Positions 15,590 through 63,743 of a stretch of 64,000 nt of DNA are shown piece after piece. Origin of the DNA: Pelagibacterales bacterium SAG-MED50 (lineage in GTDB: Bacteria > Pseudomonadota > Alphaproteobacteria > Pelagibacterales > Pelagibacteraceae); NCBI GenBank assembly GCA_014653385.1, contig JACWER010000001.1, positions 62,001 to 126,000 of the forward strand. Direction: 5' to 3'. A program made the translations under genes and the position numbers. A model generated the notes under the pieces. The model searched no databases. It was not told the DNA's origin and was given only the letters and a program-made list of their open reading frames with translations. Position 1 is the stretch's first letter. Every line of letters begins with the position of its first letter.

Positions 15590-15594
15590 TAATT

Positions 15595-16755: not shown

Positions 16756-16759
16756 TCAA

Positions 16760-31311: not shown

Positions 31312-32099
31312 TGAAAAAAATTTTATTAGTAGAAGGAAATTTGAGAGAGGCAAATCAAGAATTTACTGACAATGGAATTAAAACACATACTGAAAGCCTT
31401 AGGGAAAGTATTGATTATTTTACAAATGATTTAGAAATTGACTCTGTTAATCCTTCCTCTGATAAAAATATTTTTGATACAGTCAAAGATTTGAATAAAT
31501 ATGATGGTCTTATTTGGGGTGGAAGTAGCCTTAACATCTATAGTGATACAATGGAAATTAGAAGACAATTAGAATTTATGAAAGAGTGTCAAAAAAAAGT
31601 TAAAAATATTTTAGCAATTTGTTGGGGGATGCAAGTTGCTGTTACTGCTGCAGGAGGTATTGTTAAAAAAGGCCAAAATGGTTCACATAGAGGAATTGCA
31701 CATGATATTAATATTAATGAAAATGGATTAAGACATCCATTATATAAAGATAAAGATAAAATTTTTAATACGCCTGCATTTAATTATGATGAAGTTGTAA
31801 CATTACCTAGTAACGCAACTCTTCTATCATCAAATAAAGTAAATAATGTTATGGGAATAAACTTTAAATCAGCGTTATCTAATATTTGGGGAATACAATA
31901 TCATCCAGAGATTACATATGAAAAAATGATAACTTTAATTAATTTTAGAAAAGAAAGACTTTTAGAAAATAAATCTTTTAATGATGAAAATGATTTAAAC
32001 TCACATATTAAAATTATAGAGGATGAAATCAAAATAACTAATAAAGACTTAAGAATGAGGGAGTTAAAAAATTGGCTAAATTTAATAGCTAATGTCTAA
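31311..32099 (+). CDS. class I glutamine amidotransferase-like protein
   Basis: The 262-aa protein has the GATase1 triad: nucleophile Cys in [16 protein letters not shown] and His-Glu in [12 protein letters not shown]. It looks like the stand-alone GuaA-type or C26 group with no synthase domain. Such proteins hydrolyse glutamine or gamma-glutamyl amides, so in this amine-rich locus a gamma-glutamyl-amide hydrolase is possible but unproven. It is coupled to the alcohol dehydrogenase gene and its stop overlaps the end of fhs on the other strand by 4 bases. Confidence 0.75.
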
Positions 32100-33778
32100 A
32101 ATAATCCTTCTATTTCGCCATCTTTATTTAATTTAATAGAATCTGCTGCTGGAACTCTAGGCAAACCTGGCATAGTCATAATCTCTCCACAGACAACTAC
32201 AATAAATTCTGCCCCCGATGATAATCTAACTTCTCTAACTGGAAGTACATGACCTGTGGGAGCTCCTTTTAATCCTGGATCTGTTGAAAAACTATATTGT
32301 GTTTTTGCAATACAAACCGGAAGCTTTCCATATCCTTTTTCTTCAAAGTCTTTTAATTGTTGTCTCACTTTAGTATCTGCAACAACTTCACTTGCATGGT
32401 AGATTTCCAGTGCTATTTTTTCAACTTTTTTGAATAATGGTAATTCATCTTCATATAAATACTTAAATGTATTTTTATCTTCATCACATATATCACTCAC
32501 AATTTGTGCTAGTTCTTTAGTACCATCACTTCCATTAGACCAATGAGTACATTTTGATGCTTTAACACCTTGAGTTTTACAAAAATCTAATAATGCGTTC
32601 ATTTCATTATCGGTATCAGTTATAAAATGATTTACTGCTACAGTCACGGGTAAACCAAACTTTCTAATATTATTAATATGTCTTTCTAAATTTACCAATC
32701 CACTTTTTAGTGCTTTTACATTTTCATCTTTTAATTCTTCTTTTTTTAATCCACCATGCATCTTTAAAGCTCTTATAGTTGCAACCAAAACCACACAATC
32801 AGGTTTAATTCCAGACTTTCTACATTTAATATCTAAAAATTTTTCTGCGCCTAGATCTGCACCAAAACCAGCTTCAGTAACAACATAGTCTGCTAATTTT
32901 AAACCAGCTTTTGTTGCTATTACAGAATTACAGCCATGTGCAATATTAGCAAATGGCCCACCATGAATAATTGCAGGATTGTTTTCTAAAGTTTGAGTAA
33001 CATTTGGTCTTATTGCCTCTTTTAATAAAACCGTCATTGGACCATGAGCGTTTAAATCTTTTGCTAAAATGGGAGTTTTATCTCTAGTATATCCTATTGT
33101 GATATTACTTATTCTTTCTTCTAAGTCTTTTAAATTTGTTGCTAAACAAAAAATTGCCATTAGCTCTGATGCTACAGTGATATCAAAACTATCTTGTCTT
33201 GGATATCCATTTGCTACTCCTCCAAGATCTACAATTACTGATCTCAAAGACCTATCATTCATATCCATTACTCTTCTCCAAGAAATTCTTCTAACATCAA
33301 TATTCAATTTATTTCCCCAATAGATATGATTATCAATTAATGCAGATAATAAATTATGTGCTGAAGTGATAGCGTGAAAATCTCCTGTAAAATGTAGATT
33401 TATTTGCTCCATAGGTACCACTTGAGCATAACCACCACCAGCGGCACCACCCTTCATTCCAAAAGAAGGACCAAGACTAGGCTCTCGTAGACAAACAATT
33501 GATTTTTTTCCAATTTTATTTAAACCGTCATTTAATCCAACAGAGGTAGTAGTTTTACCCTCTCCAGCAGGTGTGGGAGTGATCGCTGTAACTAAAATTA
33601 ATTTTCCATCTTCTTTTTTTAGGGAATTTAAATATTCCAAATTTATTTTAGCAATATGTCTACCCATTGGGCTAAATGCATGGTTTTCATCAGGCACATT
33701 AATTTTTGCTAAAATATCTTTAATAGGCTGCATTTTAGCTTCTCTAGCTATTTGTATATCTGATTTTACTTCGCTCAT
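32096..33778 (-). CDS. fhs: formate--tetrahydrofolate ligase
   Basis: The 560-aa protein has the nucleotide loop [66 protein letters not shown]-like folate region (here [18 protein letters not shown]) and a C-terminal [11 protein letters not shown]. It interconverts formyl-THF and formate with ATP. In C1-oxidising SAR11 cells it can run toward formate and ATP, draining folate-bound C1 groups from TMAO, sarcosine and dimethylglycine. It is divergent from the soxBDAG operon, which makes methylene-THF. Confidence 0.95.
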
Positions 33779-33903: not shown

Positions 33904-35160
33904 ATGCAAAAATATTCTATATTTAATCTTATTAGAAACGCTTTTTCAGGTCATCAAAACTGGGATCTAGCCTGGAAGGATCCTACTCCTAAAAAAGAAT
34001 ATGATGTTGTGATCATTGGAGGTGGTGGTCATGGTTTAGCAACTGCATATTATTTAGCAAAAGAACATAACATTACTAATGTGGCCATCATCGAAAAAGG
34101 ATGGATTGGTGGTGGTAATGTTGGACGTAATACTACCATTATAAGATCAAATTACATGCATGATGATAATGCACTCTTTAGCGAGTTTGGAATGGATTTA
34201 TGGAGAAAGATGAGCCAAGATTTAAACTATAATGTGATGTTTTCTCCAAGAGGAATTATTAATCTTGCACATTCAGATGCGCAAATGAATGTTTATGCGA
34301 GAAGAGGAAATTCTATGAGATTAAATGGAATTGATGCAGTGCTTTTAAATAGAGAGCAGGTAAAAGAAATTATTCCAATGGCTGATTTTTCTGAAAATGT
34401 AAGATTTCCAATTTTTGGAGCTTTAATGCAACCAAGTGCAGGAACAGCAAGACACGATGCGGTAGCATGGGGTTATGCACGTCAAGCAGATTCAATGGGA
34501 GTTGATATAATTCAAAACTGCGAAGTTACAGGTTTTGACGTGAGTGGAGGAAAAATTAATGGAGTAAGAACTTCAAGAGGTGACATTAAAGTTAAAAAAA
34601 TTGGTCTCTGTGTTGCAGGAAGCACAAATATTTTAGCAGAAAAATTAAATATGACGTTGCCAGTTGAAACGCATCTTCTTCAAGCATGTGTTTCAGAGCC
34701 AGTAAAACCAATTTTAGATAGAGTTGTTACTTTTGGAGCTGGACATTTCTATATTAGCCAATCTGACAAAGGTGAAATGGTAATGGGTGGAGATTTAGAT
34801 GGATACAATAGTTATGCACAAAGAGGAAATTTGCCAACTTTACAACATGTTCTTACAGAAGGAATTGCGATGATGCCATTTTTAAGTAAATTGAAAATGC
34901 TTAGAACATGGGGAGGGATAATGGATATGTCTATGGATGGCTCACCAATCATTGATAAGACACATATTGAAGGTCTATATTTGAATTGTGGATGGTGTTA
35001 TGGTGGATTTAAAGCAACTCCAGCATCGGGTTGGACATTTGCTCATACAATTGCACAAGATAGAGTTCATAAACTAAATGCTGGTTATAGTTTAAATAGA
35101 TTTAATACAGGTCATCTCCTTGATGAAAAAGGACTTGGTACAAAAACTTGGATTTCATAA
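33904..35160 (+). CDS. soxB: heterotetrameric sarcosine oxidase, beta subunit (or N-methylglutamate dehydrogenase homologue)
   Basis: The 418-aa flavoprotein begins MQKYSIFNLIRNAF, then VVIIGGGGHGLATAYYLAKEH for FAD binding and IEKGWIGGGNVGRNTTIIRSNY near the flavin. The C-terminus has YLNCGWCYGGFKATPASG. These are standard SoxB features. SoxB carries the substrate-binding FAD site and demethylates sarcosine. MgdA subunits of N-methylglutamate dehydrogenase are close homologues, and a GmaS/MgsABC set lies about 28 kb away, so both substrates must be considered. First gene of a four-gene operon with soxD, soxA, soxG order. Confidence 0.85.
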   Translation: MQKYSIFNLIRNAFSGHQNWDLAWKDPTPKKEYDVVIIGGGGHGLATAYYLAKEHNITNVAIIEKGWIGGGNVGRNTTIIRSNYMHDDNALFSEFGMDLWRKMSQDLNYNVMFSPRGIINLAHSDAQMNVYARRGNSMRLNGIDAVLLNREQVKEIIPMADFSENVRFPIFGALMQPSAGTARHDAVAWGYARQADSMGVDIIQNCEVTGFDVSGGKINGVRTSRGDIKVKKIGLCVAGSTNILAEKLNMTLPVETHLLQACVSEPVKPILDRVVTFGAGHFYISQSDKGEMVMGGDLDGYNSYAQRGNLPTLQHVLTEGIAMMPFLSKLKMLRTWGGIMDMSMDGSPIIDKTHIEGLYLNCGWCYGGFKATPASGWTFAHTIAQDRVHKLNAGYSLNRFNTGHLLDEKGLGTKTWIS

Positions 35161-35430
35161 ATGCTTCATATTAAATGTCCTCACTGTGGAATGAGATCTC
35201 AAAATGAATTTTCTTATGGTGGAGATGCAACTGTTAAAAGACCAGAGCTTGATAAAGAAATATCTGATCAAGATTGGGATAATTTTGTCTATAATAGAAA
35301 AAGTCTAAGAGGAAAACATTGGGAGTTATGGCAACATTTGTCAGGCTGTAGACAATGGATAAAGGTTGAGAGAGATACAGCTACACATGAAATTTTTAAT
35401 AGCCTTAAAGCTAATGAGGAAATTTCATAA
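35161..35430 (+). CDS. soxD: sarcosine oxidase delta subunit
   Basis: The 89-aa protein has the zinc-binding N-terminus LHIKCPHCGMRSQNEFSYGG and a further conserved cysteine/histidine region HLSGCRQWIKVERDTATHEI. This size and motif arrangement is diagnostic of the SoxD/SoxE family. It is a small structural subunit of the heterotetramer. Its ATG follows the soxB stop directly, and its stop overlaps the soxA start by one base (TAATG). Confidence 0.9.
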   Translation: MLHIKCPHCGMRSQNEFSYGGDATVKRPELDKEISDQDWDNFVYNRKSLRGKHWELWQHLSGCRQWIKVERDTATHEIFNSLKANEEIS

Positions 35431-38426
35431 TGTCACAAAGCTACAGATTAGATAATATTGGCTTAATCAATAGAGACAAGAAACTCTCATTCAAATTTAA
35501 TGGTATTACTTATAATGGATATGAAGGTGACACTCTTGCTTCAGCCTTAATAGCTAATGGTGTCCATTTAGTTGGTAGAAGTTTTAAATATCACAGACCT
35601 AGAGGTTTTTTTGGAGCAGGGGTTGATGAGCCGTATGCAATAGTACAATTGTATAGAAACGGTGAAACTGAACCCAATATTAAAGCTACAGAACAAGAGC
35701 TTTTTGAAGGTTTGGAAGCAACAAGTGTAAACTGTTGGCCTAGTGTTAACTTTGATATTGGTGCTATAAATAATTTCTTAAAGATTTTTCTTCCAGCTGG
35801 TTTTTATTATAAAACTTTCATGTGGCCTAAAAGCTTTTGGTATAAAGTTTATGAACCATTTATTAGAAAAGCAGCAGGACTAGGTGTTGCATCTACTAAA
35901 CATGACAAAGAAAGATATGAACATAAATATGAATATTGTGATTTGTTAATTGCAGGTTCAGGACCGTCTGGTTTAGCAAGCGCATATGCTGCAGCAAAAA
36001 ATGGTGCACGAGTTATTTTAGCTGAAGATAAAGCTAGACATGGAGGAACATTATTAACTAGTGATGTTAACATAGGAAATCAATCTGGTAAGGAATGGGC
36101 TGAGGGAATAATTTCAGAACTTAAAGAAATGCCTAATGTAATTGTTAAAAATAGATCACAGGTTTTTGGTTATTATGATCATAATATGCTAGTGATGTCA
36201 GAGAGAATAAGTGATCATCTTCCTAAAACAAAAAAATTTCACCCAAAACAAAGACTTTGGTACATTAGAGCAAAAGAAGTTTTAATTTCTTCAGGGTCAA
36301 TCGAAAGACCAATAGTTTTTGGTAACAACGATACACCAGGTGTAATGCTATCATCAGCTGCAAAAGAGTATCTTAAAGTTTATGGAGTATTAGTTGGAAG
36401 AAACCCTTTAATATTTACTAACAATGATAGTGGGTATGAGACCGCAATTGAATTTAAAAAAAATGGAGTTGATCCAGTCATTTTAGATACAAGAAAAGAT
36501 CCACAATCAGAAATAGTTGATGAAGCAAAAAATTTAGGAATAAATATTAAATTTTCTTATGTAGTAGTTGCTGCCCAAGGGTACAAAAAGATAAAATCAG
36601 CTGATATTGCTAGGATTTCAGATGATAAAGAGCAACTTGGAACAGTAGAGAATATAAAATGTGACTGTATATGTGTTTCTGGTTTTTGGACACCAACTAT
36701 TCATCTAGCCTCACAATCAGGAAATAAAACAAAATTCAACGAGGATATTGATGCATTTGTTCCAGGAATATCAAAACAAAATGAAACCACGTTAGGTGCA
36801 GCAAATGGAACTTATACTCTGGACGAAACCTTAAAAAGTTCTTTTGAAACAGGACATGAATTATCAAAAAAAATTACGAACAACGACAATGAAATTTCTT
36901 TTCCAAACGTTGTTGAAAAAAAATCAACAACACATGATAAATTTTGGTGTGTACCATTACCTGAAGGAAAAAATTATAAAAGATTTTTAGATTTTCAAAA
37001 TGATGTTTCCGTTTCAGATGTTGAGATAGCGCTTAAAGAAGGCTATCGATCAATTGAACATGTAAAAAGATATACGACACTTGGAATGGCAACAGACCAA
37101 GGTAAAACAAGTAATTTAAATGGTTTGCAATTAGTATCTAACATAGAAAACAAAGTAGTACCAAATGTTGGTCACACTACTTTTAGACCTCCTTATACAC
37201 CTATTTCTATAGGTGCGATTGTTGGAAGGGAAGTTGGAAAACACTCAAAACCCACAAGAAAGTCTCCAATGCATTCATGGCATAAAAAAAATAATGCAGT
37301 TTTTGTTGATGCAGGTGTCTGGTTAAGACCTAGATATTATAAACAAGGAAATGAAAATTTATTCGAAGGATCCAAAAGAGAAGCAAAAAATGTCAGAACA
37401 AATGTAGGAATTTGTGATGTCACTACATTAGGTAAAATAGATATTAAAGGACCAGATGCAGCAGAGTTACTTAATAGAGTTTATACAAATGCATGGTTAA
37501 AACTACCTGTGGGTAAAGCAAGATACGGCGTGATGTTGAGAGAAGATGGAATTGTTATGGATGACGGAACAACTACAAGAATTTCTGAAAACCATTATCA
37601 TATGACAACTACTACCGCACAAGCTGCAAACGTTCTTTCACATTTAGAATATTATTTGCAATTAGTTTGGCCAGAATTAAATGTGAATGTAGTTTCAACT
37701 ACAGAGCAATGGGCTGGCGCTGCAATTGCTGGACCTAAATCTAGAGATTTATTACAAAAATTATTTCCAAATTCTGATGTATCAAATGAAGGATTGCCTT
37801 TTATGGGTTACATAGAGGAAGATTTGTTTGGAGTAAAAGCAAGAATTTTTAGAATTTCATTTTCAGGTGAACTTGCTTATGAAGTAAATGTAGAGTCGGA
37901 TAATGGAAACTTTATGTGGGAAAAGATCATGGAAGTGGGTCATGAATTTAAAATTCAACCATACGGAACAGAAGCACTTTCAACTCTTAGAATTGAAATG
38001 GGACATGTTGCAGGTTCTGAGCTTGATGGAAGAACAATACCATATGACAACTCTTTGGAGGGATTACTAAGTAAAAAGAAAGATTTTATTGGTAAAAGAT
38101 CTTTAAGCAGAAAGGCATTTACTGCTGAAGATAGACAAAAAGTTGTTGGAGTTGTTCCATTAGATAAAAAAACAAGTATTCCTGAAGGATCGCATCTAGT
38201 TAAAGACTCAAATGCTCCACTCCCAAATCCAAAATTAGGTTATATTTCAGCATCTTGCTGGAGTGTAGAGCATGATAATCCATTTTCACTAGCAATACTT
38301 AAAGATGGAAAAAACATGATTGGTGAAAAACTATTTGTAATGTCTCCACTTAAAAATAAAGTAATTCCAGTTGAAATTGTTTCTTCACACTATGTTGATC
38401 CAAAAGGTGAAAGGGTTAGATCATGA
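35430..38426 (+). CDS. soxA: sarcosine oxidase alpha subunit
   Basis: The 998-aa protein has the full SoxA layout: N-terminal ferredoxin-like fold ([16 protein letters not shown]), an NAD-binding flavoprotein domain with [21 protein letters not shown] near residue 170 and [20 protein letters not shown], and a C-terminal GcvT domain ([26 protein letters not shown]). The GcvT part transfers the methyl carbon to THF as methylene-THF. Length agrees with other alphaproteobacterial SoxA. It overlaps soxG by 4 bases (ATGA). Confidence 0.92.
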
Positions 38427-49431: not shown

Positions 49432-50790
49432 TTAGCCTTTTACAACTTCTCTAGTGTTTGCGTTGAATGACTCTTTAAATGGAATGTCTACTACTACTGC
49501 ATCAACAGGTGTTCCTGGAGTGTCTGAGTATTTTTCTGGTAAATGAACTTTATATTTAGTTCCAACTTTACCTTTTGGAAATCCATTTGCATTCAATGTT
49601 CCATCAAATGGTACATATCCCATTGCAATGTTTTGTTTTTTCTCTGGGTGATACCAAGGAGAGGTAATAAATCCTACTGGATCTCCACCACTCTCAGGTG
49701 ATACTAGCCAAAAATCAGGAGCATACTCTTCAATCGGTTTTCCACCTAATTCAAGCCCAACTAATTGAAGCTTGTACGGTTTTTTACCATCTTTAATTTC
49801 AGCACCCATTTTTTCTAAAGCAGCTTTACCAACATAGTCAGCTTTTTTAGCCCATTCACCTTTTCCAGATAATGAAACTTGATAACCTAAGTTACATTGG
49901 AAAGGATTATGCTGTTGATCCATATCTTGACCCCATGAAAGAATTCCTGCTTGAATTCTTCTATGGTGAGCAGGAGCAATAACCATAAGGCTATGTTTTT
50001 TTCCAGCATCAAGAACTGCATTCCACATATCGTCAGCGTATAACATGGAGTCTCTCAGATATATCTCATAACCAGCTTCTCCTGAAAAACCAGACTGAGA
50101 AATAACACAACTTCTTCCACCTACTTTTGTTTCTGCTAAACCGTAGAAAGGCATATTATCGAAATCAACTTGATCTCCACACAAATCTTTCATTAACGCT
50201 TTGGCTTTTGGTCCTTGTATTTGAACAGGGCTGACATCAATTTCTTCAATAGTACAATCAAATCTTCCATCAGCGTTTACACCTTGAAGGTACATACCAA
50301 TATCAGAGTCTGATAACGAAAACCAAAATTCATCTTCTGAAATTCTAAGAAGAATTGGATCATTTAAAACCCCACCATATGCATTACATAAGATTACATA
50401 TCTTGCTCTCATAGGAGAAATTTTTGTTGCATCTCTTGTTATTACATAGTCAGTAAATTTTTCTGCATCCGGACCTTTAACTCTGATTTGTCTTTCAACA
50501 GCAACATTCCACATAGTAACGTGATTTACAATTGCGTCGTACTCAACCATAGCTCCACCATCTTCTGGTTTTACGTAACCTCTTGGGTGATAAATACGAT
50601 TATAAACAGTTGCTCTCCAACAACCTGCTTGCATTGATAAGTGCCAATAAGGAGATTTTCTTACTCTTGTCGAGATAAGCATTTCAACTTTTGTTGGACC
50701 ACTTTGTCTTAAGTTATAAGGCACTGCACGATCCGATTGATCGACTGAAGTTGCCTGATTTAGTTTAGTATAGTCAAATTCATTAGACAT
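49432..50790 (-). CDS. DmdA-like THF-dependent demethylase (GcvT family)
   Basis: The GcvT-fold protein is about 452 aa from the ATG at 50790 (track start 50796). It shares with DMSP demethylase DmdA the strings NVAVERQIRVKGPDA, LNDPILLRISEDEFWFSLSDSDIG and GILSWGQDMDQQHNPFQCNLGY, plus the folate-loop region ISQSGFSGEAGYEIYL. Unlike DmdA (about 370 aa) it has some 60-70 extra residues at the N-terminus and differs at the folate loop. It overlaps a metF gene, which fits a methyl-THF product as in DmdA and LigM. Substrate unknown: DMSP or another methyl donor. Confidence 0.75.
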   Translation of the reverse strand: MSNEFDYTKLNQATSVDQSDRAVPYNLRQSGPTKVEMLISTRVRKSPYWHLSMQAGCWRATVYNRIYHPRGYVKPEDGGAMVEYDAIVNHVTMWNVAVERQIRVKGPDAEKFTDYVITRDATKISPMRARYVILCNAYGGVLNDPILLRISEDEFWFSLSDSDIGMYLQGVNADGRFDCTIEEIDVSPVQIQGPKAKALMKDLCGDQVDFDNMPFYGLAETKVGGRSCVISQSGFSGEAGYEIYLRDSMLYADDMWNAVLDAGKKHSLMVIAPAHHRRIQAGILSWGQDMDQQHNPFQCNLGYQVSLSGKGEWAKKADYVGKAALEKMGAEIKDGKKPYKLQLVGLELGGKPIEEYAPDFWLVSPESGGDPVGFITSPWYHPEKKQNIAMGYVPFDGTLNANGFPKGKVGTKYKVHLPEKYSDTPGTPVDAVVVDIPFKESFNANTREVVKG

Positions 50791-51562
50791 AACCATTCTC
50801 CTTCAACCACTTGTTTGTTTCCTTCAAGCCGCCGAATGTATAAATGTGGAAGTTATCAGTATGTGACTTAACTTTCCCAATTAGTTCATTAGGGTCTTTA
50901 GGTTTCAATAAATCTAACGCCTTAGTAAAATTAGATTTAAGAAAGTTAATGGAATTTTTCGCACCGACAATATTAGCAAACTTTATTAAGCTAGATATTT
51001 TCATTGGCCCAGTAATTCCAACATGCACTGGTACGCTTTGTTTAGAAACAAAATCAACAATAGGCTGACTATCTAATAACCATTGGGTTACTATGTAATC
51101 AGCATAAGGCTTTTTATCTATCATTGCTTTTTCTAAATTTTGTTCTGGTATATCTGGACTTCCTTCAGGATGGCCTGCGATACCAATTTTAATTCCTCCA
51201 AAAAAACCTGTTTCTAAAATTTGATATGAGCTATCAAACTTACCAACTGGTTCTCTGCTTCCACCAATTACTAAAGCTTGCGTAACACCTTGATCTTTAC
51301 ATCTTGAAACATAATCTTTTAATTCATCATCATTATTTATTGATCTGGCTGGAAAGTGTGGAACTGGATTAAAACCTTTTTTAACAAGGTCTCCTGATTT
51401 ATCAGCAGTCTCTTTATAATCACCACCAGGTAACATTGTAACATATACATCCTTTACAGCAGGTAAGGTTTCAAGGTCAGTATGAGGACCAATTTCTAGT
51501 GAAAAATTCATTTTTTCCAGATCATTATCCTTTTTAAAAATGCTGTCAAAGAAATTCAGCAT
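50783..51562 (-). CDS. metF: methylenetetrahydrofolate reductase-like protein
   Basis: The 259-aa TIM-barrel flavoprotein-like sequence carries MTHFR features: VPHFPARSI, DQGVTQALVIGGSREPVG, KIGIAGHPEGSPDIP, ADYIVTQWLLDS and VHVGITGPMKISSL. It is shorter than E. coli MetF. Its end overlaps the DmdA-like start, so both are made together; the expected job is oxidising methyl-THF to methylene-THF rather than supplying methionine synthesis. An internal ATG at 51511 is an alternative start. The first 23 bases overlap the longest reading of the divergent Rieske ORF. Confidence 0.83.
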   Translation of the reverse strand: MLNFFDSIFKKDNDLEKMNFSLEIGPHTDLETLPAVKDVYVTMLPGGDYKETADKSGDLVKKGFNPVPHFPARSINNDDELKDYVSRCKDQGVTQALVIGGSREPVGKFDSSYQILETGFFGGIKIGIAGHPEGSPDIPEQNLEKAMIDKKPYADYIVTQWLLDSQPIVDFVSKQSVPVHVGITGPMKISSLIKFANIVGAKNSINFLKSNFTKALDLLKPKDPNELIGKVKSHTDNFHIYTFGGLKETNKWLKENGYV

Positions 51563-51614: not shown

Positions 51615-52808
51615 ATGGTCGAAAATCTTAAAAATAATTCTCTCTCAAAGATCTTGGACATCAAGAAATTGATGGATGTGGACAAACCTATAGAGACCGC
51701 AAATGGACTTCCAAACCAGTGTTACACCAGTGAGCAATATTTAGAATATGAAACAGATAAGATTTTTTGTAATAAATGGACAGTAATTGGGGTAGCTAGT
51801 TCTATACCCAATGTTGGGGATGCTAAACCATACAATCTACTCGGGATTCCTTTAATGATAGTCAGAGACAAAGATCGTAATATTAGGGTATTTCATAATG
51901 TTTGCAGCCATAGAGGATTTAAACTAATAGACAAACCATGCACTTTGAAAAATGTAATTAGATGCCCTTATCATTCCTGGTCATATGACTTTAAGGGAAA
52001 CCTAGTGGCCACCCCTCATATAGGTGGCTTAAATATTCATAACTCAGATCAATTTGAAAAGAATCAGAGCAATTTAAAGGAAGTTAGATCTAAAGTATGG
52101 ATGGACATTATTTTTGTTAATATTAATTCAAATGAAATTGAATTTAATGAGTATATCAAGCCACTTGAACAAAGATGGTCTAGATTCATTACTTATAAAG
52201 ATCAAAAATTATTAATTCATTCTAAAGATTATGGTTCTTTTGATTTAGAAGTTAAATGTAATTGGAAGTTTGCAATTGAAAATTACTGTGAAAGCTATCA
52301 TTTACCAACTATTCATCCAGAATTAAATAAAGTATCAAACATTAATGATCATTATCACATTCAAGGTTTACCCAATAGATTCGCAGGACAAGGAAGTGAA
52401 AAATACGAACAACCGGTAAAAGGAAATAGGAAATTTGATACATTTAAGAATTGGGAAAAAAGCTCACATAAAAATTCTGAATATATAGCATTATTTCCCA
52501 ATGTAATGATTGGTCTACATTTAGATCATTTTTATGTTTTTTGGCTAGAACCACTTGCAATCAATAAAACTAAAGAACATATGGAAATGTATTATGTCGG
52601 TGATAAAAGTGCTAACGGAAATGAACTTAAAGAATTAAGAAAAGAAAATATAAGATTTTGGAAGGAAGTAATGTTAGAAGACATTAGTGCAATTGAGGGT
52701 ATGCAAGAGGGAAGAAGTTCACCTGTATATAACGGTGGAAATTTCTCACCAGTGATGGATCAACCAACTCATCAATTTCATAAATGGGTAGCAAATAGTT
52801 TATTATAA
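51615..52808 (+). CDS. Rieske non-heme iron oxygenase, alpha subunit
   Basis: I prefer the ATG at 51615 (MVENLKNNSL) over the track start 51540, which overlaps metF; this gives 397 aa. The Rieske cluster motif is NVCSHRGFKL with RCPYHSWSYD. The mononuclear iron site is FAIENYCESYHLPTIHPEL with the distant Asp in EDISAIEGMQ. The family hydroxylates or demethylates aromatic or quaternary amine substrates and needs a reductase; a 2Fe-2S ferredoxin gene lies about 5 kb downstream. Divergent from metF, so the two units may share control. Substrate unknown, glycine-betaine-like monooxygenase being one option. Confidence 0.85.
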   Translation: MVENLKNNSLSKILDIKKLMDVDKPIETANGLPNQCYTSEQYLEYETDKIFCNKWTVIGVASSIPNVGDAKPYNLLGIPLMIVRDKDRNIRVFHNVCSHRGFKLIDKPCTLKNVIRCPYHSWSYDFKGNLVATPHIGGLNIHNSDQFEKNQSNLKEVRSKVWMDIIFVNINSNEIEFNEYIKPLEQRWSRFITYKDQKLLIHSKDYGSFDLEVKCNWKFAIENYCESYHLPTIHPELNKVSNINDHYHIQGLPNRFAGQGSEKYEQPVKGNRKFDTFKNWEKSSHKNSEYIALFPNVMIGLHLDHFYVFWLEPLAINKTKEHMEMYYVGDKSANGNELKELRKENIRFWKEVMLEDISAIEGMQEGRSSPVYNGGNFSPVMDQPTHQFHKWVANSLL

Positions 52809-53598: not shown

Positions 53599-54474
53599 AT
53601 GAATTCAGATTTAAATTTTTTTAAAAAAAATGGATATCTAGTAAAAAAAAATTTAATTACTCAAAAAAAAATTAATAAGATAAACGAAATTGTTAATGAA
53701 GTTGTATCAAAAGAAAATAAAAAAAATGATACAAACGGAACTCAATCTTATAATAATTATCACTTTGTTTACAATTCAAACACATTAAAAAATAAAGAAA
53801 TTTTAAGGTTAAATAATCCTCAAAATAGACATAAAATTTTTTATGATTTATCAAGAGATAAAAAAATAATATCTATAGTTAAAAAGTTGTTAGGAGGATC
53901 TGTAAGATTTCATTTGGGTAAATTAAATTTTAAACTTCCTAACAAAAAAAAAGGAAGCGAAATTGGGTGGCATCAAGACTGGGCATTTTATCCTCATACT
54001 AACGATGATTTAGTTACTGTTGGTATATATTTAGATGATTGCTACGAGAAAAATGGACCTCTTAAAATAATAAAAAATTCACATAAAGAAAAATTATATA
54101 GCCATCATAATAATGAAAATTTTTTTGTTGGAAAAATAAACACAAAAAAAAATAAAATTGGGATAAAAAATAGTGTTTCTATAACTGGTACTGCAGGAAC
54201 AGTAGTTTTTTTTCATTGTAGATCTGTACATGGGTCAGGTCACAATCAAATGAATAATTCTAGACCTTTAATTTTATTTGGATATAGAGCTTCTGATGCA
54301 TGGCCATTAATCAATGATGGTAATCCTCATCCAGAGATAGATTTAGATAATTACAATAAAAACATTATAGTTGGAAAGAACTCTGTAAAACCAAGGTTAA
54401 CAAAAGTCCCTACAATCATACCATTGCCAAAAAAGAAACATTATGTTTCTATTTACGAACTTCAAAAAAATTAA
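53599..54474 (+). CDS. phytanoyl-CoA dioxygenase-family Fe(II)/2OG oxygenase
   Basis: The 291-aa protein has the facial triad HQD in IGWHQDWAFYPHTNDD and distal His in CRSVHGSGHNQ, with the 2-oxoglutarate Arg in SRPLILFGYRASDAW. It belongs to the PhyH group, which includes ectoine hydroxylase and phosphonate dioxygenases. The start MNSDLNFFKKNGYLV is typical for this family. It lies 6 bases after the nucleotidyltransferase gene. Substrate unknown. Confidence 0.82.
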   Translation: MNSDLNFFKKNGYLVKKNLITQKKINKINEIVNEVVSKENKKNDTNGTQSYNNYHFVYNSNTLKNKEILRLNNPQNRHKIFYDLSRDKKIISIVKKLLGGSVRFHLGKLNFKLPNKKKGSEIGWHQDWAFYPHTNDDLVTVGIYLDDCYEKNGPLKIIKNSHKEKLYSHHNNENFFVGKINTKKNKIGIKNSVSITGTAGTVVFFHCRSVHGSGHNQMNNSRPLILFGYRASDAWPLINDGNPHPEIDLDNYNKNIIVGKNSVKPRLTKVPTIIPLPKKKHYVSIYELQKN

Positions 54475-54509: not shown

Positions 54510-55361
54510 ATGAATGAAAGATTAAAAACTATTGTAGATTTAGAAAATTACCCAATTCATGATTTATCTTCAAAAAAAATTCAAAAATTAATTAAAAAAT
54601 GTAAAGATGATTTAGATCAATTTAGTTGCTCCACTATTCCAAATTTTATTTTACCTCAATCAATTAAATCAATGAATTTCGAATTAGAAAAAAAAATTGA
54701 CAAAGTTTTTATGTCAAAAAAAAGTATTAATCCTTATCTTAACTCTAAGGACGAACCATCTTTATCTCTAAGCCATCCTAAAAGAACTTTCTTAGAGAGA
54801 GATAATGGATATTTAAATTCAGACCTTTTCAATAAAGATTCTGAAATGAAATTTTTATACGAGCAGGAAGAGCTTTTAAAATTTGTGTCAGCTTGCCTAG
54901 GTATTTCACCAATATATAGATGGGCGGATCCATTAGCTTGTCATGCATATAATGTAATGAAACCAGAAGGAATTTTACCTTGGCATTTTGATAGTTGTGA
55001 ATTTACACTAAGTATAATGATACAAAAACCTGATGAGGGAGGAATTTTTGAATATTGTCCATTTATTAGAGAGCCAGGAAATGAAAATTTTAATGAGGTT
55101 AAGAAAGTATTAGAAGGTGATAGGTCAAAAGTTAGACAATTAAAGTTAGAACCTGGAGATTTACAAATATTTAAGGGTAGATTTACAATGCATAGAGTAA
55201 CAAGGGTAAAAGGAAATAAACCAAGATATCTTTGTATTCCAGCTTATGTATTAGATCCTTGGAGAGTTAATACGCCAGAACATTCAGAAGCTATTTATGG
55301 AAAAGTATTACCAATTCATATAGAAAGGAATCGAACAAGATCAGATGGTTTAGCAGATTAA
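54510..55361 (+). CDS. second Fe(II)/2OG oxygenase (ArpA/BesD-like group)
   Basis: The 283-aa protein has the iron triad WHFDSCEFTLSIMIQ, a double-stranded beta-helix core (GGIFEYCPFIREPG), distal His in GRFTMHRVTRVKG and the oxoglutarate Arg in KPRYLCIPAYV. The Asp of HxD is present, so it should hydroxylate rather than halogenate, as halogenases of this group carry Gly at that position. It is different in sequence from the PhyH-type enzyme upstream. Gap to the next gene is 1 base. Confidence 0.75.
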   Translation: MNERLKTIVDLENYPIHDLSSKKIQKLIKKCKDDLDQFSCSTIPNFILPQSIKSMNFELEKKIDKVFMSKKSINPYLNSKDEPSLSLSHPKRTFLERDNGYLNSDLFNKDSEMKFLYEQEELLKFVSACLGISPIYRWADPLACHAYNVMKPEGILPWHFDSCEFTLSIMIQKPDEGGIFEYCPFIREPGNENFNEVKKVLEGDRSKVRQLKLEPGDLQIFKGRFTMHRVTRVKGNKPRYLCIPAYVLDPWRVNTPEHSEAIYGKVLPIHIERNRTRSDGLAD

Positions 55362-56142: not shown

Positions 56143-56339
56143 TGTTAAATAAAAAAAATATTTTAATCATTATATTTATTATTTCAGGAATGTATTTTAT
56201 TATGAGTTTTAATGATCATAATTTCAAAAGAGCAGTAGATGCTTGTCTTGCAGGTAGTCAAAAATTATCTGAGTCTAAAATAACAGATTTAGAAAAGGCA
56301 AAAAAGTTTTGTGAAGAACAAATTAAAAAAGATAAATAA
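56142..56339 (+). CDS. 65-aa membrane-anchored or secreted miniprotein
   Basis: A GTG start overlaps the preceding stop (TAGTG) and the stop overlaps the next ATG (TAATG), so it is coupled on both sides. One hydrophobic N-terminal helix (KNILIIIFIISGMYFIMSF) precedes a short periplasmic region with two cysteines (VDACLAG and KKFCEEQ) that could form a disulfide or bind a cofactor. No family is known to me. It could escort the selenium-binding-type protein encoded next. Confidence 0.6.
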   Translation: MLNKKNILIIIFIISGMYFIMSFNDHNFKRAVDACLAGSQKLSESKITDLEKAKKFCEEQIKKDK

Positions 56340-57712
56340 TGGGTGATATTAAAAATATGGATAAATCATGTTGTGGACCAGGTTATGCAAGTCCATCAGA
56401 TGCAATTAAAGCACCTAATGAAAAACTTTTATATACTATAGCAATTTATACTGGCACAGGAATTCAAAAACCTGATTATCTTGCAACTATTGATGTTGAT
56501 CCAAATAGCCCCACATATTCTCAAGTTATTCACCGTCTTGAAATGCCTGGAATAGGAGATGAGCTTCATCATATGGGATGGAATGCTTGTTCTTCATGTC
56601 ATGGAGATGAAGGGATGAGTAGAAAATATCTTTTAGTTCCAGGTGTTAGATCTAATAATATTCATGTAATTGATACTGCATCAGATCCTTTTGCCCCAAA
56701 AATTCATAAAATTATAGAGGGTTCTGAAATAAAATCAAAAACAAATTTGTCAGGACCTCATACAGTCCACTGTCTCGGTTCTGAAATTATTATTTCTTTT
56801 CTAGGTAATGCAAGAGGAGAAGCTCCTGGAGGATATTTACATTTAAATAAAGATTTTGAAATTGTTGGAAGATGGGAAAATTCTATGGGCGATATTCCAT
56901 TTAGTTACGATTTTTGGTATCAGCCAAGACATAATGTGATGGTCAGTTCAGAATGGGCTGCACCAAATACTTTTATGCCTGGTTTTGATCTTGAAGAAGT
57001 AGGGCACTTAAAATACGGACGTAGATTACATATTTGGGATTTTAAAAAGAAAGAACCAGTTGAGACAATGTACTTAGGTGAAGATGGTTTAATCCCTTTA
57101 GAGGTAAAATTTTTGCATAATCCTGACAGCAGTCATGGATTTTGTGGAGCAGCTTTAAGTGCAAATGTAATTCATTTTTGGAAATCTAAAGAAGGAAAAT
57201 GGAAGTGGGAAAAAATTATTGATGTTGAAAACGAACCACATCCAGAATGGCCTATTCCTATACCAGGAGTAATGTCTGCTATACTTGTTTCAATGGATGA
57301 TAAATATCTTTACTTAAATAATTGGCTTCATGGAGATATGAGGCAATACGATATTTCTGATCCTCATAATCCAAAATTAACTGGTCAAGTATGGATGGGA
57401 GGACTTTTAGGGAAAGCACCAATTGTAAATGGTGTAAAAATTGCTGGTGGTCCACAAATGTATCAATTGTCTTTAGATGGAAAACGTATGTATGTAACAA
57501 CTTCATTATTTTCAACTTGGGATAATCAATTCTATCCAGATATTCGTACTCAAGGAGGAGCCATGATAATGATTGATTGTGATGTTGAAAATGGAGGAAT
57601 GAAAATCAATAAGGATTTCATAGTTGATTTTGGGAAAGAGCCTAATGGTCCAAGTAGATGTCATGAAAGCAGATATCCAGGTGGAGATTGTACAAGTGAT
57701 ATTTGGTTGTAA
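56339..57712 (+). CDS. SBP56 family protein, methanethiol oxidase-like
   Basis: The 457-aa protein belongs to the 56-kDa selenium-binding protein family, with the CCGPGYASP start, MGWNACSSCHGDEG (conserved Cys site), RSNNIHVIDTASDP, SGPHTVHCLG, LPDSSHGFCGAAL-like (here NPDSSHGFCGAA) and a C-terminal YPGGDCTSDIWL. Bacterial relatives oxidise methanethiol to formaldehyde, hydrogen peroxide and sulfide. No signal peptide is seen, unlike the periplasmic Hyphomicrobium enzyme. In DMSP-using SAR11 it could consume methanethiol. It is coupled to the ferredoxin gene by TAATG. Confidence 0.85.
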   Translation: MGDIKNMDKSCCGPGYASPSDAIKAPNEKLLYTIAIYTGTGIQKPDYLATIDVDPNSPTYSQVIHRLEMPGIGDELHHMGWNACSSCHGDEGMSRKYLLVPGVRSNNIHVIDTASDPFAPKIHKIIEGSEIKSKTNLSGPHTVHCLGSEIIISFLGNARGEAPGGYLHLNKDFEIVGRWENSMGDIPFSYDFWYQPRHNVMVSSEWAAPNTFMPGFDLEEVGHLKYGRRLHIWDFKKKEPVETMYLGEDGLIPLEVKFLHNPDSSHGFCGAALSANVIHFWKSKEGKWKWEKIIDVENEPHPEWPIPIPGVMSAILVSMDDKYLYLNNWLHGDMRQYDISDPHNPKLTGQVWMGGLLGKAPIVNGVKIAGGPQMYQLSLDGKRMYVTTSLFSTWDNQFYPDIRTQGGAMIMIDCDVENGGMKINKDFIVDFGKEPNGPSRCHESRYPGGDCTSDIWL

Positions 57713-58074
57713 TGCAAATTACAATTTCTAATCGCGAGAATAGTGTTTACAAAGTTTCAGGGAAAATGTCTTTACTTCAAGAATTAAGAGAACAAGGCGT
57801 AGATTTACCTTATGGTTGTCAATATGGAGGATGTATTACTTGTGCAGCTAAATTGATTGAGGGCGAAGTAGATCAGCGGTCACAAGTTGCCCTTAATAAC
57901 CGACAGATCAATAATGGTTATATAATTTTATGCGTAGCTAAACCAAAAACAGATTGTACGATTGAGATTGGGGTTGAAAGCCATGATAAATTATACCGCA
58001 ATCCTTTTCTTGACCCACTTGCACCACATGAGTTAAAAGCTGATATTGCTAGCCAGAAAAATAAAAAAAAATAA
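57712..58074 (+). CDS. 2Fe-2S ferredoxin (plant type)
   Basis: The real start is the ATG at 57712 overlapping the previous stop (120 aa), not the upstream track start. The cluster motif is GCQYGGCITCAAKLI with the fourth Cys in YIILCVAKP, a standard CX4CX2C...C plant-type arrangement. A basic C-terminal tail ends QKNKKK. It may pass electrons to the Rieske oxygenase or to the methanethiol-oxidase-like protein. Confidence 0.88.
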   Translation: MQITISNRENSVYKVSGKMSLLQELREQGVDLPYGCQYGGCITCAAKLIEGEVDQRSQVALNNRQINNGYIILCVAKPKTDCTIEIGVESHDKLYRNPFLDPLAPHELKADIASQKNKKK

Positions 58075-59608: not shown

Positions 59609-62041
59609 ATGAAAACAAAAACTAAAGTTGTAGTAGTTGGTGGTGGAGTAGTAGGGGTTAGTGCCCTTTATCATCTAGCAAAAAAAGGTTTAACAGATGT
59701 CGTTCTTGTTGAAAGAAAAGAATTAACATCAGGTTCAACTTGGCATGCCGCAGGATTACTACCTTTGTTTAACATGAGTTATTCAGTGGGACAGCTTCAC
59801 AAATATGCTGTTGATCTTTATAAAAAATTAGAAGAAGAAACGGGACAAAATGTTGGATTTAGTGTTGTTTCAAATATTCGTTTAGCAAGCACAAAAGATA
59901 GAATGGATGAATATCACCAGTATGCTGGTGTTGCTCAAACAATTGGTGTTGACGTAAAATTTTTAACTCCAGATCAAGTAAAAGAAATTTGGCCTTTATG
60001 TAATACTTCAGATTTACTTGGAGCAATACAACATCCTGAAGATGGATATATTCAACCAGCCGATTTAACACAAGCTATGGCTACAGGTGCAAGAAACAGA
60101 GGTGCAGAAATTTATAGAAATACTGCTGTAGTTGGAATTAAACAAACCAAAGATGGATGGATAGTTGAAACTGATAAAGGAGCAATTGAATGTGAGCATG
60201 TAATTTCTTGTTCAGGAAATTTTGCAAGACAAACTGGAAAAATGGTTGGTTTAGATATTCCAGTTATACCAGTTGAACATCAGTATATAGTTACAGAAGC
60301 ACACCCAGATATCTTAAAAAGAAAAAAAGAAGGCTTACCTGAAATGGGAGTGTTAAGAGATAGTGATAGCAGATGGTACATGAGGGAAGAAGCAGGTGGC
60401 TTAATATTAGGACCTTATGAAGATGGTGCACCAGCTTGTTATGTTGATGGCCCATCAAAAGATTCAGAGTATGAATTATTTCAAGAAGACTTGGATAGAC
60501 TTGCTCCACATATAGAAGGTGCTATTCATCGTGTGCCAGCTTTTGGAGAAGTAGGTGTAAAAAAAGTTTATAACGGAGCTATATGTTATACTCCTGACGG
60601 AAATCCTATTGTTGGTCCAGCGTGGGGACTCAAAAATTTTTGGATTAATGAAGGACATAGTTTTGGAATTACTGCAGCAGGTGGAGCTGGATGGCAACTA
60701 GCAGAATGGATTGTAGATGGTGAACCAACAATCGATATGCTTGGTGTTGAACCAAGAAGGTTTGGTGATTATGCAACAAAATCTTATTTAAAAGAAAAAA
60801 ATGAAGAAGCTTATAACCATGTATTTAAAGTTCATTATCCAGATGAAGAAAGAGGGGCTGCTAGAGAATTAAGAACTTCACCTTGTTATGATAGAATGAA
60901 AGATTTAGGAGCAGTATTTGGTCAAAAATTTGGGTGGGAGCGACCTAATTTCTTTGCAACTGATGGAATGGAGCAAAAAGATGACTGGTCTTTTAGAAGA
61001 TCTAAGTGGTTTGAAGCAATTAAAAAAGAATGTCAAAATGTTAAAGAAAATGTTGGTCTTCTAGATATGACTGCCTTTGCTAAATGTAGAATTAAAGGGC
61101 CTGGAGCTGAAGAATTTTTAGACTATTTAGTAGCAAATAAACTTCCAAAAAAAATAGGAAGAATAGGATTGTGTCACGCATTAAATACTAAAGGAGGAGT
61201 TCATTCTGAATTTACGATAATGAGGGAAGCTTCAGATAGTTTTTATTTAGTTTCAGCAGGAGCCAATCAAAGATTAGATCATGATTGGATTCAAAAGTGG
61301 ATGCCTAGTGATGGAACAGTTCAATTTGAAAATTTAACTAATAGCATGGGTGTACTTGTTGTGTCAGGTCCAAAAGCTAGAGAATTAATGACAAGAGTAT
61401 CAACAGATGATTTTTCTGCTGAAAACTTTAAATGGTTAAGTGCAAAAAATATTAATGTAGGAAATGCTCCTGTTAATGCTATGAGAGTAAACTTTGTAGG
61501 GGAACTTGGTTGGGAACTTCATCATCCAATTGAATATCAAAATCATATATTTGATAAATTAATGGAAGCTGGTAAGGACTTAGGTCTTAAGCCTTATGGA
61601 ATTAGAGCAATGAATAGTTTAAGAGTTGAAAAATCTTATAAATTAGTTGGGACTGAACTATCCATTGAATATTCGCCTTATGAGTCTGGACTAGATAGAT
61701 TTGTTCACCCGAACAAAGGTAATTTTATTGGTTTGGAAGCACTCAACAAGTGGAGAGAAAAAGGTTTTGAAAATAAACTTGTTACTATGGAAATACATAA
61801 TGTGGAAGATGCTGATGTCTTAGGGAATAATCCAATTTATGAAAATGATAAAGTAGTAGGACGTGCAACAGGTGGGGATTTTGGATTTAGATTAGGAAAA
61901 TCAATTGCATTAGGTATGGTTAAACCAAATGTTGCGACAACAGGTCAAAAATTGAAAATTGATATTTTAGGAAAAATGTACGATGCTACAATATTAGATG
62001 AGAGTCCATACGATCCAGAAAATAATTTATTGAGAGCATAA
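59609..62041 (+). CDS. dimethylglycine dehydrogenase (FAD + GcvT fusion)
   Basis: The 810-aa protein has an N-terminal DAO-type domain ([19 protein letters not shown]) with the covalent-FAD histidine motif [10 protein letters not shown], and a C-terminal GcvT folate domain ([33 protein letters not shown]). This matches dimethylglycine/sarcosine dehydrogenases, which oxidatively demethylate the amine and transfer the carbon to THF. Electrons go to ETF, and etfB follows with a 1-base overlap. A ribosome site TAGGAATCGCCAATG supports the start. Sarcosine or a related N-methyl amino acid is the alternative substrate. Confidence 0.87.
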
Positions 62042-62790
62042 TGAAAATTTTAGTCGCTGTTAAAAGAGTAATTGATTATAACGTCCAAGTAAGAGTTAAA
62101 GAGGATGGATCTGGGGTAGTTACTGAAAACGTTAAGATGTCTAGCAATCCACCTGATGATAATGCAGTTGAAGAAGCTGTCAAAATTAAAGAAGCAGGTA
62201 AGGCAACTGAAATTGTAGCAATTACAGTTGGTGAAGAAAAATCTCAAGAAACTGTTAGAAAAGCTTTGGCAGTTGGTGCTGATAGAGGCATTCTAATTAA
62301 AACAGAAGGAACTGTTGAGCCGCTTGCAGTAGCAAAGGTATTACAAAAAATTGTTGATAAAGAAAAACCAGATTTAGTTTTTATGGGTAAACAAGCAATT
62401 GATGATGATTGTAACCAAACTGGTCAAATGTTAAGTGCGTTATTAAATTGGCCGCAAGCAACCTTTGCATCAAAAATCGAGATAAAAGATAAAGTTTTAG
62501 AAGTTACTAGAGAGATTGATGAAGGCTTAGAAACAATTGAAGTTAATGTTCCAGCAATTGTAACTTGCGACTTAAGATTAAACGAGCCAAGATATGCATC
62601 TTTACCAAATATAATGAAGGCTAAAAAAAAACCTTTAGAAATTTTAACTGCCTCTGACCTTGGAATTGACACAACACCTAGAGTTCAGCAAATTAAAGTA
62701 GAGGAACCACCAAAAAGAAAAGCAGGAATTAAAGTAGCAAGTGTTGCTGAGCTAGTTAGTAAACTTAAAAATGAGGCAAAAGTAATTTAA
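62041..62790 (+). CDS. etfB: electron transfer flavoprotein beta subunit
   Basis: The 249-aa protein begins [19 protein letters not shown] and holds the ETF-beta signature region [22 protein letters not shown] and [25 protein letters not shown] with the recognition loop. It binds AMP and, with EtfA, carries electrons from flavin dehydrogenases. It is coupled to the dehydrogenase and to etfA by one-base overlaps (TAATG). Confidence 0.95.
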
Positions 62791-63743
62791 TGTCAGTTTT
62801 ATTAATTGCAGAGCATAATAATAAAGAAGTAAGACCTTTTACATTAAATGCCATAACTGCTGCATCTCAAATTGATCCAGATGTACATGTATTGTTAATT
62901 GGGAATAACTGTGAAAATGTTGCCAAATCTTTATCAGAAATGTCAGCAGTTAAAAAAGTATTACATGCTGAAGCTGCTCATTATGAAAATTATCTAGCAG
63001 AAAATTTTGCTCCGTTAGTTGTAAAAGTTTCTGAAAATTATACTCATATAGTTAGTTCAGCAAATACATTTGGTAAAAATTTAATGCCAAGAATAGCAGC
63101 ACACTTAGATACCTCTCAAGTAAGTGATATTATAAAAGTTATCTCACCAGATACGTTTTTAAGACCTATTTATGCGGGAAATGCATTTGCGACAGTAAAA
63201 AGTAGTGATACCAAAAAATGTGTAACTATTAGACCTACATCATTTGATCCTTGTGAGACATCTGGTGGATCTGCTCCAATTGAAAAAATTGAACCAACTG
63301 AAGAATTTACATCATCAAAATTTATAAAAAGGGAAGAAGTTAAATCAGATAGACCAGAACTTGGAACTGCCAGAGTAGTAGTTTCTGGTGGAAGAGGTAT
63401 GCAAAATGGAGAGAATTTTAAATTGATAACTGATATTGCAGATAAATTAAATGCTGCAATTGGTGCTTCAAGGGCTGCAGTGGATGCAGGATACATAAGT
63501 AATGAACACCAAGTTGGTCAAACTGGTAAAGTTGTTGTTCCAGATTTATATATTGCAGTTGGAATATCAGGAGCAATTCAGCATTTAGCTGGAATGAAGG
63601 AAAGTAAAATTATAGTTGCGATAAATAAAGATGGTGAAGCACCAATATTTAGTGTTGCAGATTATGGTTTAGAAGCAGATTTATTTGAAGCACTTCCTCA
63701 ATTCTTAGAAGAATTGAACAAATTAAATAGTATACAAAAATAA
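62790..63743 (+). CDS. etfA: electron transfer flavoprotein alpha subunit
   Basis: The 317-aa protein has the C-terminal FAD domain motifs RVVVSGGRGMQNGENF, IGASRAAVDAGYISNEHQVGQTGK, YIAVGISGAIQHLAGM and FSVADYGLEADLFEALPQ. It forms the ETF heterodimer with EtfB. Length is as expected. It is followed 22 bases later by the ETF-ubiquinone oxidoreductase gene. Confidence 0.95.
   Translation: MSVLLIAEHNNKEVRPFTLNAITAASQIDPDVHVLLIGNNCENVAKSLSEMSAVKKVLHAEAAHYENYLAENFAPLVVKVSENYTHIVSSANTFGKNLMPRIAAHLDTSQVSDIIKVISPDTFLRPIYAGNAFATVKSSDTKKCVTIRPTSFDPCETSGGSAPIEKIEPTEEFTSSKFIKREEVKSDRPELGTARVVVSGGRGMQNGENFKLITDIADKLNAAIGASRAAVDAGYISNEHQVGQTGKVVVPDLYIAVGISGAIQHLAGMKESKIIVAINKDGEAPIFSVADYGLEADLFEALPQFLEELNKLNSIQK

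Follow-up and report, generated by a model that had tools for sequence, protein, structure and literature searches.

A candidate folate-dependent glycine betaine demethylase in SAR11: a DmdA-like GcvT-family protein encoded with MetF

Glycine betaine is one of the major osmolytes in the sea, and its conversion to dimethylglycine is known to proceed by three routes, catalysed by GbcAB (a Rieske system), BHMT, which makes methionine, and MtgB. These enzymes catalyse the same pathway step as the one proposed below for a GcvT-like protein of SAR11, but they are unrelated to it, and they yield formaldehyde, methionine or a methyl-corrinoid rather than methyl-THF. SAR11 cultures oxidise the methyl groups of glycine betaine, and the listed betaine demethylation route starts with BHMT (PMC3160333), the expression of which rises under sulfur limitation (PMC5069961).

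The systems closest to the protein described here are folate-dependent. DmdA (structure 3tfh, Candidatus Pelagibacter ubique) resembles it in having the GcvT fold, no fused oxidase domain and a predicted redox-neutral transfer of a methyl group to THF. In contrast to DmdA, the GcvT-like protein has an N-terminal extension of ~30 residues, a PEDGG insert and a longer C-terminus, falls in a separate clade and below the DmdA cut-off, and is encoded with genes of betaine catabolism rather than DMSP genes. LigM is likewise a GcvT-derived THF demethylase, and the methyl-THF that it makes is oxidised by an MTHFR homologue, S6MTHFR of Sphingobium SYK-6 (PMC12585457). However, the substrates of LigM are aryl methyl ethers, its similarity to our protein is very remote (E 1e-6), and, unlike in that system, the metF and GcvT-like genes of the SAR11 pair overlap.

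Within SAR11, Sun and colleagues (2011; PMC3160333) described a DmdA-like aminomethyltransferase, SAR11_1265, encoded next to metF (SAR11_1264). They speculated that its role is to take the second methyl group off DMSP, with MMPA as its substrate. A later study found both transcripts five- to tenfold lower in two conditions than in exponential growth (ratios of 0.20 and 0.12 for metF, 0.10 and 0.10 for SAR11_1265; PMC5069961). Judging by gene order and uniqueness, the pair that we describe appears to be orthologous to SAR11_1265/SAR11_1264, with metF immediately beside the DmdA-like gene and MetF assigned, as in the earlier work, to an early stage of methyl-THF oxidation. The pair had been recognised in SAR11 before; what differs is the substrate, which was guessed to be MMPA in 2011 and is read here, on comparative evidence, as glycine betaine. 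In the open-access papers searched, we found SAR11_1265 named only in Sun 2011 and Smith 2016, and no description of a THF-dependent glycine betaine demethylase.

The window analysed, a stretch of 64 000 nucleotides, comes from a genome of the Pelagibacteraceae (SAR11); the nearest among its named relatives are single-cell genomes and MAGs of SAR11, with 93–99% protein identity. On its minus strand, a metF-like gene (50783–51562) is followed by the gene for the GcvT-like protein (49432–50796), and the two overlap, as the sequence-only reading had reported. The overlap of 14 nt in the reading frames as called is probably one of 8 nt (50783–50790), since the second ATG, at 50790, is the conserved start; from there the protein would have 452 amino acids instead of 454. 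This 8-nt overlap is exact in 88 of 88 SAR11 loci examined, metF lies directly upstream in all 80 loci from named SAR11 genomes, and the two genes are probably translationally coupled. The pair is present in most of the ocean SAR11 examined and has relatives in other bacteria and in haloarchaea. Many metF relatives begin at an ATG equivalent to about position 51511 (MNFSLE...), giving proteins of 242 amino acids. MetF has diverged much more quickly than the protein paired with it: the f1 and f2 families of SAR11 have MetFs that are 49% identical (window 50783–51562 versus L112:10822–11562), compared with 85% for the GcvT-like protein.

The GcvT-like protein belongs to the GcvT superfamily of folate-binding proteins (PF01571/PF08669), with both the folate-binding domain (Pfam GCV_T, E 2e-39, 135.6 bits against a cut-off of 25.6) and the C-terminal barrel (GCV_T_C, 26.4 against 25.9 bits). 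Its best match among solved structures is SAR11 DmdA (3tfh, E 1e-41) and among curated families NCBIfam DmdA (NF009133), which bears out the DmdA-like strings first noticed in it, but the score of 231 bits is below the equivalog cut-off of 410. It also falls below the cut-offs of all three GcvT models (147 versus 300, 131 versus 236 and 117 versus 459 bits) and of the LigM and DesA equivalogs (38 versus 580 and 41 versus 800 bits), and far below those of the SoxA and TMAO-demethylase models. In a maximum-likelihood tree it lies in a clade of its own, beside and not inside the DmdA clade that holds 3tfh and the DmdAs of its own genome; haloarchaeal orthologues fall in the same clade, whose bacterial and haloarchaeal core has 100/100 support. 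The tree and the family score together rule out a placement inside DmdA.

Sequence marks agree with this separation. The protein is 27% identical to DmdA and longer at its C-terminus, and it carries an N-terminal extension (VDQSDRxVPxNLRQSGPT..., also written VDQSDRxVPxNLRQ(S/T)G...) and a PEDGG insert, both of which are absent from DmdA and are kept from SAR11 to haloarchaea, except in the most distant member, G056. The extension, which had been called long, amounts to about 30–35 residues. Ten GCV_T loci lie above cut-off in this protein's own genome, among them two canonical DmdAs (555 and 517 bits against a cut-off of 410) and a separate, normal GcvT (461 versus 459 bits). The suggestion of one more THF-dependent demethylase, which would be neither DmdA nor GcvT and would feed MetF, thus holds up as a prediction, given the separate clade, the two other DmdAs, the separate GcvT and the lack of detectable MetH or MetE. 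As to its substrate, left earlier as some S-, O- or N-methyl compound, gene context in several bacterial families and in haloarchaea points to glycine betaine. An AlphaFold model built from 23 near-identical SAR11 rows had a mean pLDDT of 40.6, too poor for inspection of the pocket or for an argument for betaine from its residues; viral contigs, scanned to diversify the alignment, added one partial sequence. The same genome also encodes two DmdA-related GcvT paralogues below the DmdA cut-off (L103:14446–15720 and L104:9584–10723, at 193 and 392 bits), which, with the L111 type in family f2, suggest that SAR11 holds more uncharacterised THF demethylases.

The metF-like protein, a distant homologue of MTHFR, has one strong structural match, over most of its length (residues 32–253, E 9e-29), to the solved MTHFR 7xg9, which is listed as a 5,10-methylenetetrahydrofolate reductase and which we take to be the Sphingobium SYK-6 enzyme. 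NCBIfam MTHFR models match it weakly, and it has no Pfam match at 1e-3, whereas orthologues at the same position do reach the Pfam MTHFR gathering score. None of 41 Pelagibacterales genomes has more than one such MetF, encoded next to the GcvT-like gene, a Pfam MTHFR search found no second copy, and the six genomes in which the GcvT-like orthologue is absent also lack MetF. The MetF is not the private partner envisaged in the sequence-only reading ('its own MetF'): no other MetF was found in these genomes, so the DmdAs must depend on it as well, which rules out a MetF dedicated to the GcvT-like protein. A MetF would be needed only if the demethylase product is methyl-THF, as with DmdA and LigM. 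MetH is absent from all 41 genomes, and no MetE catalytic domain was found in the window's own genome (86% complete) or in the complete genome G012; proteins of 351 amino acids resembling MetE occur in family f2, and weaker MetE matches in some same-genus genomes. Because neither MetH nor MetE was found in its own lineage, with the genome at 86% completeness, methyl-THF has no visible use there except oxidation, and it is from this absence that we infer that MetF runs in the oxidative direction. Outside SAR11, MetF is often but not always adjacent to the GcvT-like orthologue.

Orthologues of the GcvT-like protein are sparse in other Alphaproteobacteria and a few other members of the phylum, mostly at ~60–83% identity over nearly full length (one at 49–53%), and their neighbours repeatedly point to betaine catabolism. 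An orthologue of a dimethylglycine dehydrogenase (DMGDH)-like gene that also lies in our window (59609–62041) neighbours the GcvT-like gene in f142, f77, f31, f17 and f2-g3, at 57–79% identity. In three genomes of f32 (G377, G070 and G299), soxB, soxA, a DMGDH-like gene, metF and the GcvT-like gene form one run; in f17 the GcvT-like gene, metF, fhs and DMGDH follow in succession with divergent sox genes; and in the SAR11 sister family f2 fhs adjoins the pair in the loci read. Taking one genome per family, excluding the window's own family and leaving out two genomes with too-short contigs, a DMGDH/Sox-type gene lies within 10 kb of the GcvT-like gene in seven of 12 bacterial families, compared with 0.9 expected (P about 5e-6), a rough guide that assumes random placement, a generous ten DMGDH/Sox-type genes per genome and independence of families. 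For comparison, the listed positions put no DMGDH/Sox-type gene within 10 kb of any of the 10 DmdAs that exceed their cut-off in these genomes. On the other hand, five families (represented by G341, G224, G160, G068 and G770) have no DMGDH/Sox gene within 10 kb, and no betaine transporter or betaine regulator lies beside the pair in SAR11, both of which count against a betaine reading.

GbdR is a regulator that responds to betaine and dimethylglycine and controls betaine catabolism in Pseudomonas. In f206, a family of the same phylum but another class whose three genomes we take to be Gammaproteobacteria, the GcvT-like gene occurs with fhs and a gene for a FAD/GcvT enzyme, MetF was detected in two loci (L159 and L160), and the loci annotated (L157 and L159) encode a regulator above the NCBIfam GbdR cut-off (498–501 versus 480) and a serine ammonia-lyase in the same cluster. 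Of the known enzymes for the first demethylation, canonical GbcA is above cut-off in one of 22 carrier genomes (G770) and near it in another (G341), both among the genomes in which the GcvT-like gene is not linked to DMGDH; in two f77 genomes (G115 and G404) the sole S-methyltransferase match lies in a MetH-sized frame and looks like MetH, so that BHMT is seemingly absent. Gene calls in the GC-rich loci were mechanical, and some long open reading frames there with no Pfam hit and lying opposite real genes (e.g. L148:8454–10028) were treated as spurious. A 684-residue flavin oxidoreductase near the orthologue in G224 was considered as DgcA-like, a reading that we rejected, as it matches no named family.

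The linkage extends to another domain. A search of plasmid proteins returned 16 haloarchaeal records with a GcvT-like orthologue at 50–57% identity, and of the nine regions read, eight place the gene close to MetF together with further components of one pathway. The exception, L173, is a locus without the cluster and counts against the betaine reading. The clusters encode DMGO/DMGDH-type FAD enzymes, with N,N-dimethylglycine oxidase as best match (E 2e-175), although none was found in Halomicrococcus within the stretch read, and a BCCT transporter (PF02028) whose PDB relatives include trimethylamine and choline transporters and the betaine transporter BetP. In various combinations they further encode serine hydroxymethyltransferase (GlyA), a threonine/serine-type ammonia-lyase, formate-THF ligase (Fhs) and FolD, as well as dihydrofolate reductase and dihydropteroate synthase or PabAB, and in Haladaptatus formate dehydrogenase. 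Linkage to the dimethylglycine and sarcosine steps thus recurs in unrelated lineages, several bacterial families and haloarchaea, and suggests a betaine-burning gene set common to two domains of life.

We read these clusters as coding for betaine import, removal of its three methyl groups, conversion of the glycine to serine and on to pyruvate, and oxidation of the folate-borne methyl groups. The step from betaine to dimethylglycine has no assigned enzyme in this scheme, and the GcvT-like protein is the recurrent protein with no assigned role; for this reason we propose it as the betaine demethylase, a role that would also fit its kinship with an enzyme transferring methyl from an onium centre to THF. 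It would act as an N-methyltransferase, converting glycine betaine and THF to N,N-dimethylglycine and 5-methyl-THF, the latter being oxidised by the co-translated MetF to 5,10-methylene-THF. Dimethylglycine would then pass to glycine through DMGDH with electron transfer flavoprotein (ETF) and sarcosine oxidase, the genes for which also lie in the window, and methylene-THF would be converted to formate, with formation of ATP, through FolD and Fhs. Here the substrate is suggested by gene context, and methyl transfer to THF by the relationship to DmdA and the pairing with MetF. On these comparisons, we consider it probable that the GcvT-like protein is a THF-dependent glycine betaine demethylase with MetF oxidising its product. 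We lean, a little less firmly, towards a broader reading, in which it would represent a new class of the GcvT family, a glycine betaine N-demethylase that depends on THF and uses no oxygen, homocysteine or cobalamin, common to SAR11, other proteobacteria and haloarchaea, with an oxidative MetF. Counting against glycine betaine demethylation are the weaker nucleophilicity of folate N5 relative to the thiolate of BHMT or the Co(I) of MtgB, and the fact that, to our knowledge, no GcvT-family enzyme demethylates a quaternary amine.

The same gene context could accommodate a THF-dependent enzyme that demethylates a different betaine or methylated compound (such as choline, carnitine, proline betaine, a creatine-derived compound or an N-methyl amino acid) and whose product feeds into the dimethylglycine/sarcosine pool. 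Choline, carnitine and trimethylamine are also transported by members of the BCCT family, and creatininase-family genes accompany the haloarchaeal clusters, but the gammaproteobacterial clusters encode GbdR, and with dimethylglycine-type enzymes linked to the gene, betaine is the most economical choice; we regard another donor as rather unlikely. A second DMSP-pathway role, be it conversion of MMPA to mercaptopropionate, by which the second methyl group of DMSP would be removed, or a second DMSP demethylation, draws on DmdA being the closest characterised relative and on a methanethiol oxidase-like gene ~5 kb away in the window. It is disfavoured because most carrier genomes have no canonical DmdA above cut-off (eight of 22 do); moreover, the surrounding genes are not DMSP genes but those for DMGDH, Sox, GbdR and BCCT proteins, and the window's own genome already has its two canonical DmdAs. 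We hold this role to be very unlikely.

Divergent from metF in the window is a gene for a Rieske oxygenase (51615–52808, plus strand), distantly GbcA-like, which might perform the first betaine demethylation itself, leaving the GcvT-like protein an accessory role, for example in loading formaldehyde or methyl groups onto folate. The gene is kept beside metF in several same-genus genomes (it was not seen in G016 or in the loci read from f2), and a Rieske gene also occurs in the Haloarcula marismortui cluster, but the corresponding cluster of H. hispanica, in which the GcvT-like orthologue is WP_014031189.1, has none, and the two Rieske proteins are 25% identical to each other and score 118 (window) and 132 bits (H. 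marismortui) against a GbcA cut-off of 670. Formaldehyde capture, furthermore, would give methylene-THF, for which no MetF is needed, and this arrangement seems more improbable still than a DMSP role. Least probable of all is an ordinary glycine-cleavage T-protein or a catalytically inactive folate-binding protein: the GcvT fold is as expected for either, but a separate GcvT passes the cut-off that the GcvT-like protein fails, along with the other two, and the family keeps 50–57% identity and common motifs from SAR11 to haloarchaea.

If the glycine betaine reading is correct, the folate-dependent demethylase would provide a purely catabolic betaine route, and would explain why the GcvT-like gene and MetF travel together in genomes where neither MetH nor MetE is found. 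It would also correct the habit of labelling such genes DmdA-like or GcvT, and the haloarchaeal plasmid orthologues bring the step within reach of tests on organisms in culture. Creatininase-family genes lie beside the betaine-type clusters in five of the nine haloarchaeal regions (L169, L171, L174, L175 and L177).

Much of the window (1–64000) is a region of methylated-amine and C1 genes. The DMGDH-like protein (DAO, FAO_M and GCV_T domains; 59609–62041, plus strand) matches dimethylglycine dehydrogenase 4p9s at E 7e-192, and its gene is directly followed on the same strand by those for ETF beta (62041–62790) and ETF alpha (62790–63743), 69% and 67% identical, respectively, to the ETF subunits encoded with DMGDH in L141. 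Genes for sarcosine oxidase family beta (33904–35160; TIGR01373, 673 versus 529 bits) and alpha subunits (35430–38426; TIGR01372, 1309 versus 1164 bits) are on the plus strand, and fhs, for the formate-THF ligase of THF-linked C1 oxidation, is on the minus strand (32096–33778; NCBIfam, 906 versus 652 bits; 66% identical to the fhs adjoining the pair in L112). Further genes encode TMAO demethylase (18030–20357; 1166 versus 1100 bits), trimethylamine monooxygenase (26209–27540; 746 versus 675 bits) and a glutamine synthetase III-like protein below cut-off (11593–13062). A malate-CoA ligase beta-like gene (15595–16755; 633 versus 604 bits) between genes for a CitE-type lyase and a probable alpha subunit suggests that this SAR11 genome has a malyl-CoA module, resembling the serine cycle, at 14654–17647. 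Near the demethylase pair, the region 56339–58074 holds a gene for an SBP56/methanethiol oxidase-like protein (157.7 bits against the MtoX cut-off of 650) and, after it, a small reading frame that by eye is ferredoxin-like. Finally, a PhyH-type dioxygenase gene (53599–54474) adjoins one (54510–55361) whose product scores above the Pfam cut-off for the HalD halogenase-family model (40.4 versus 26 bits).
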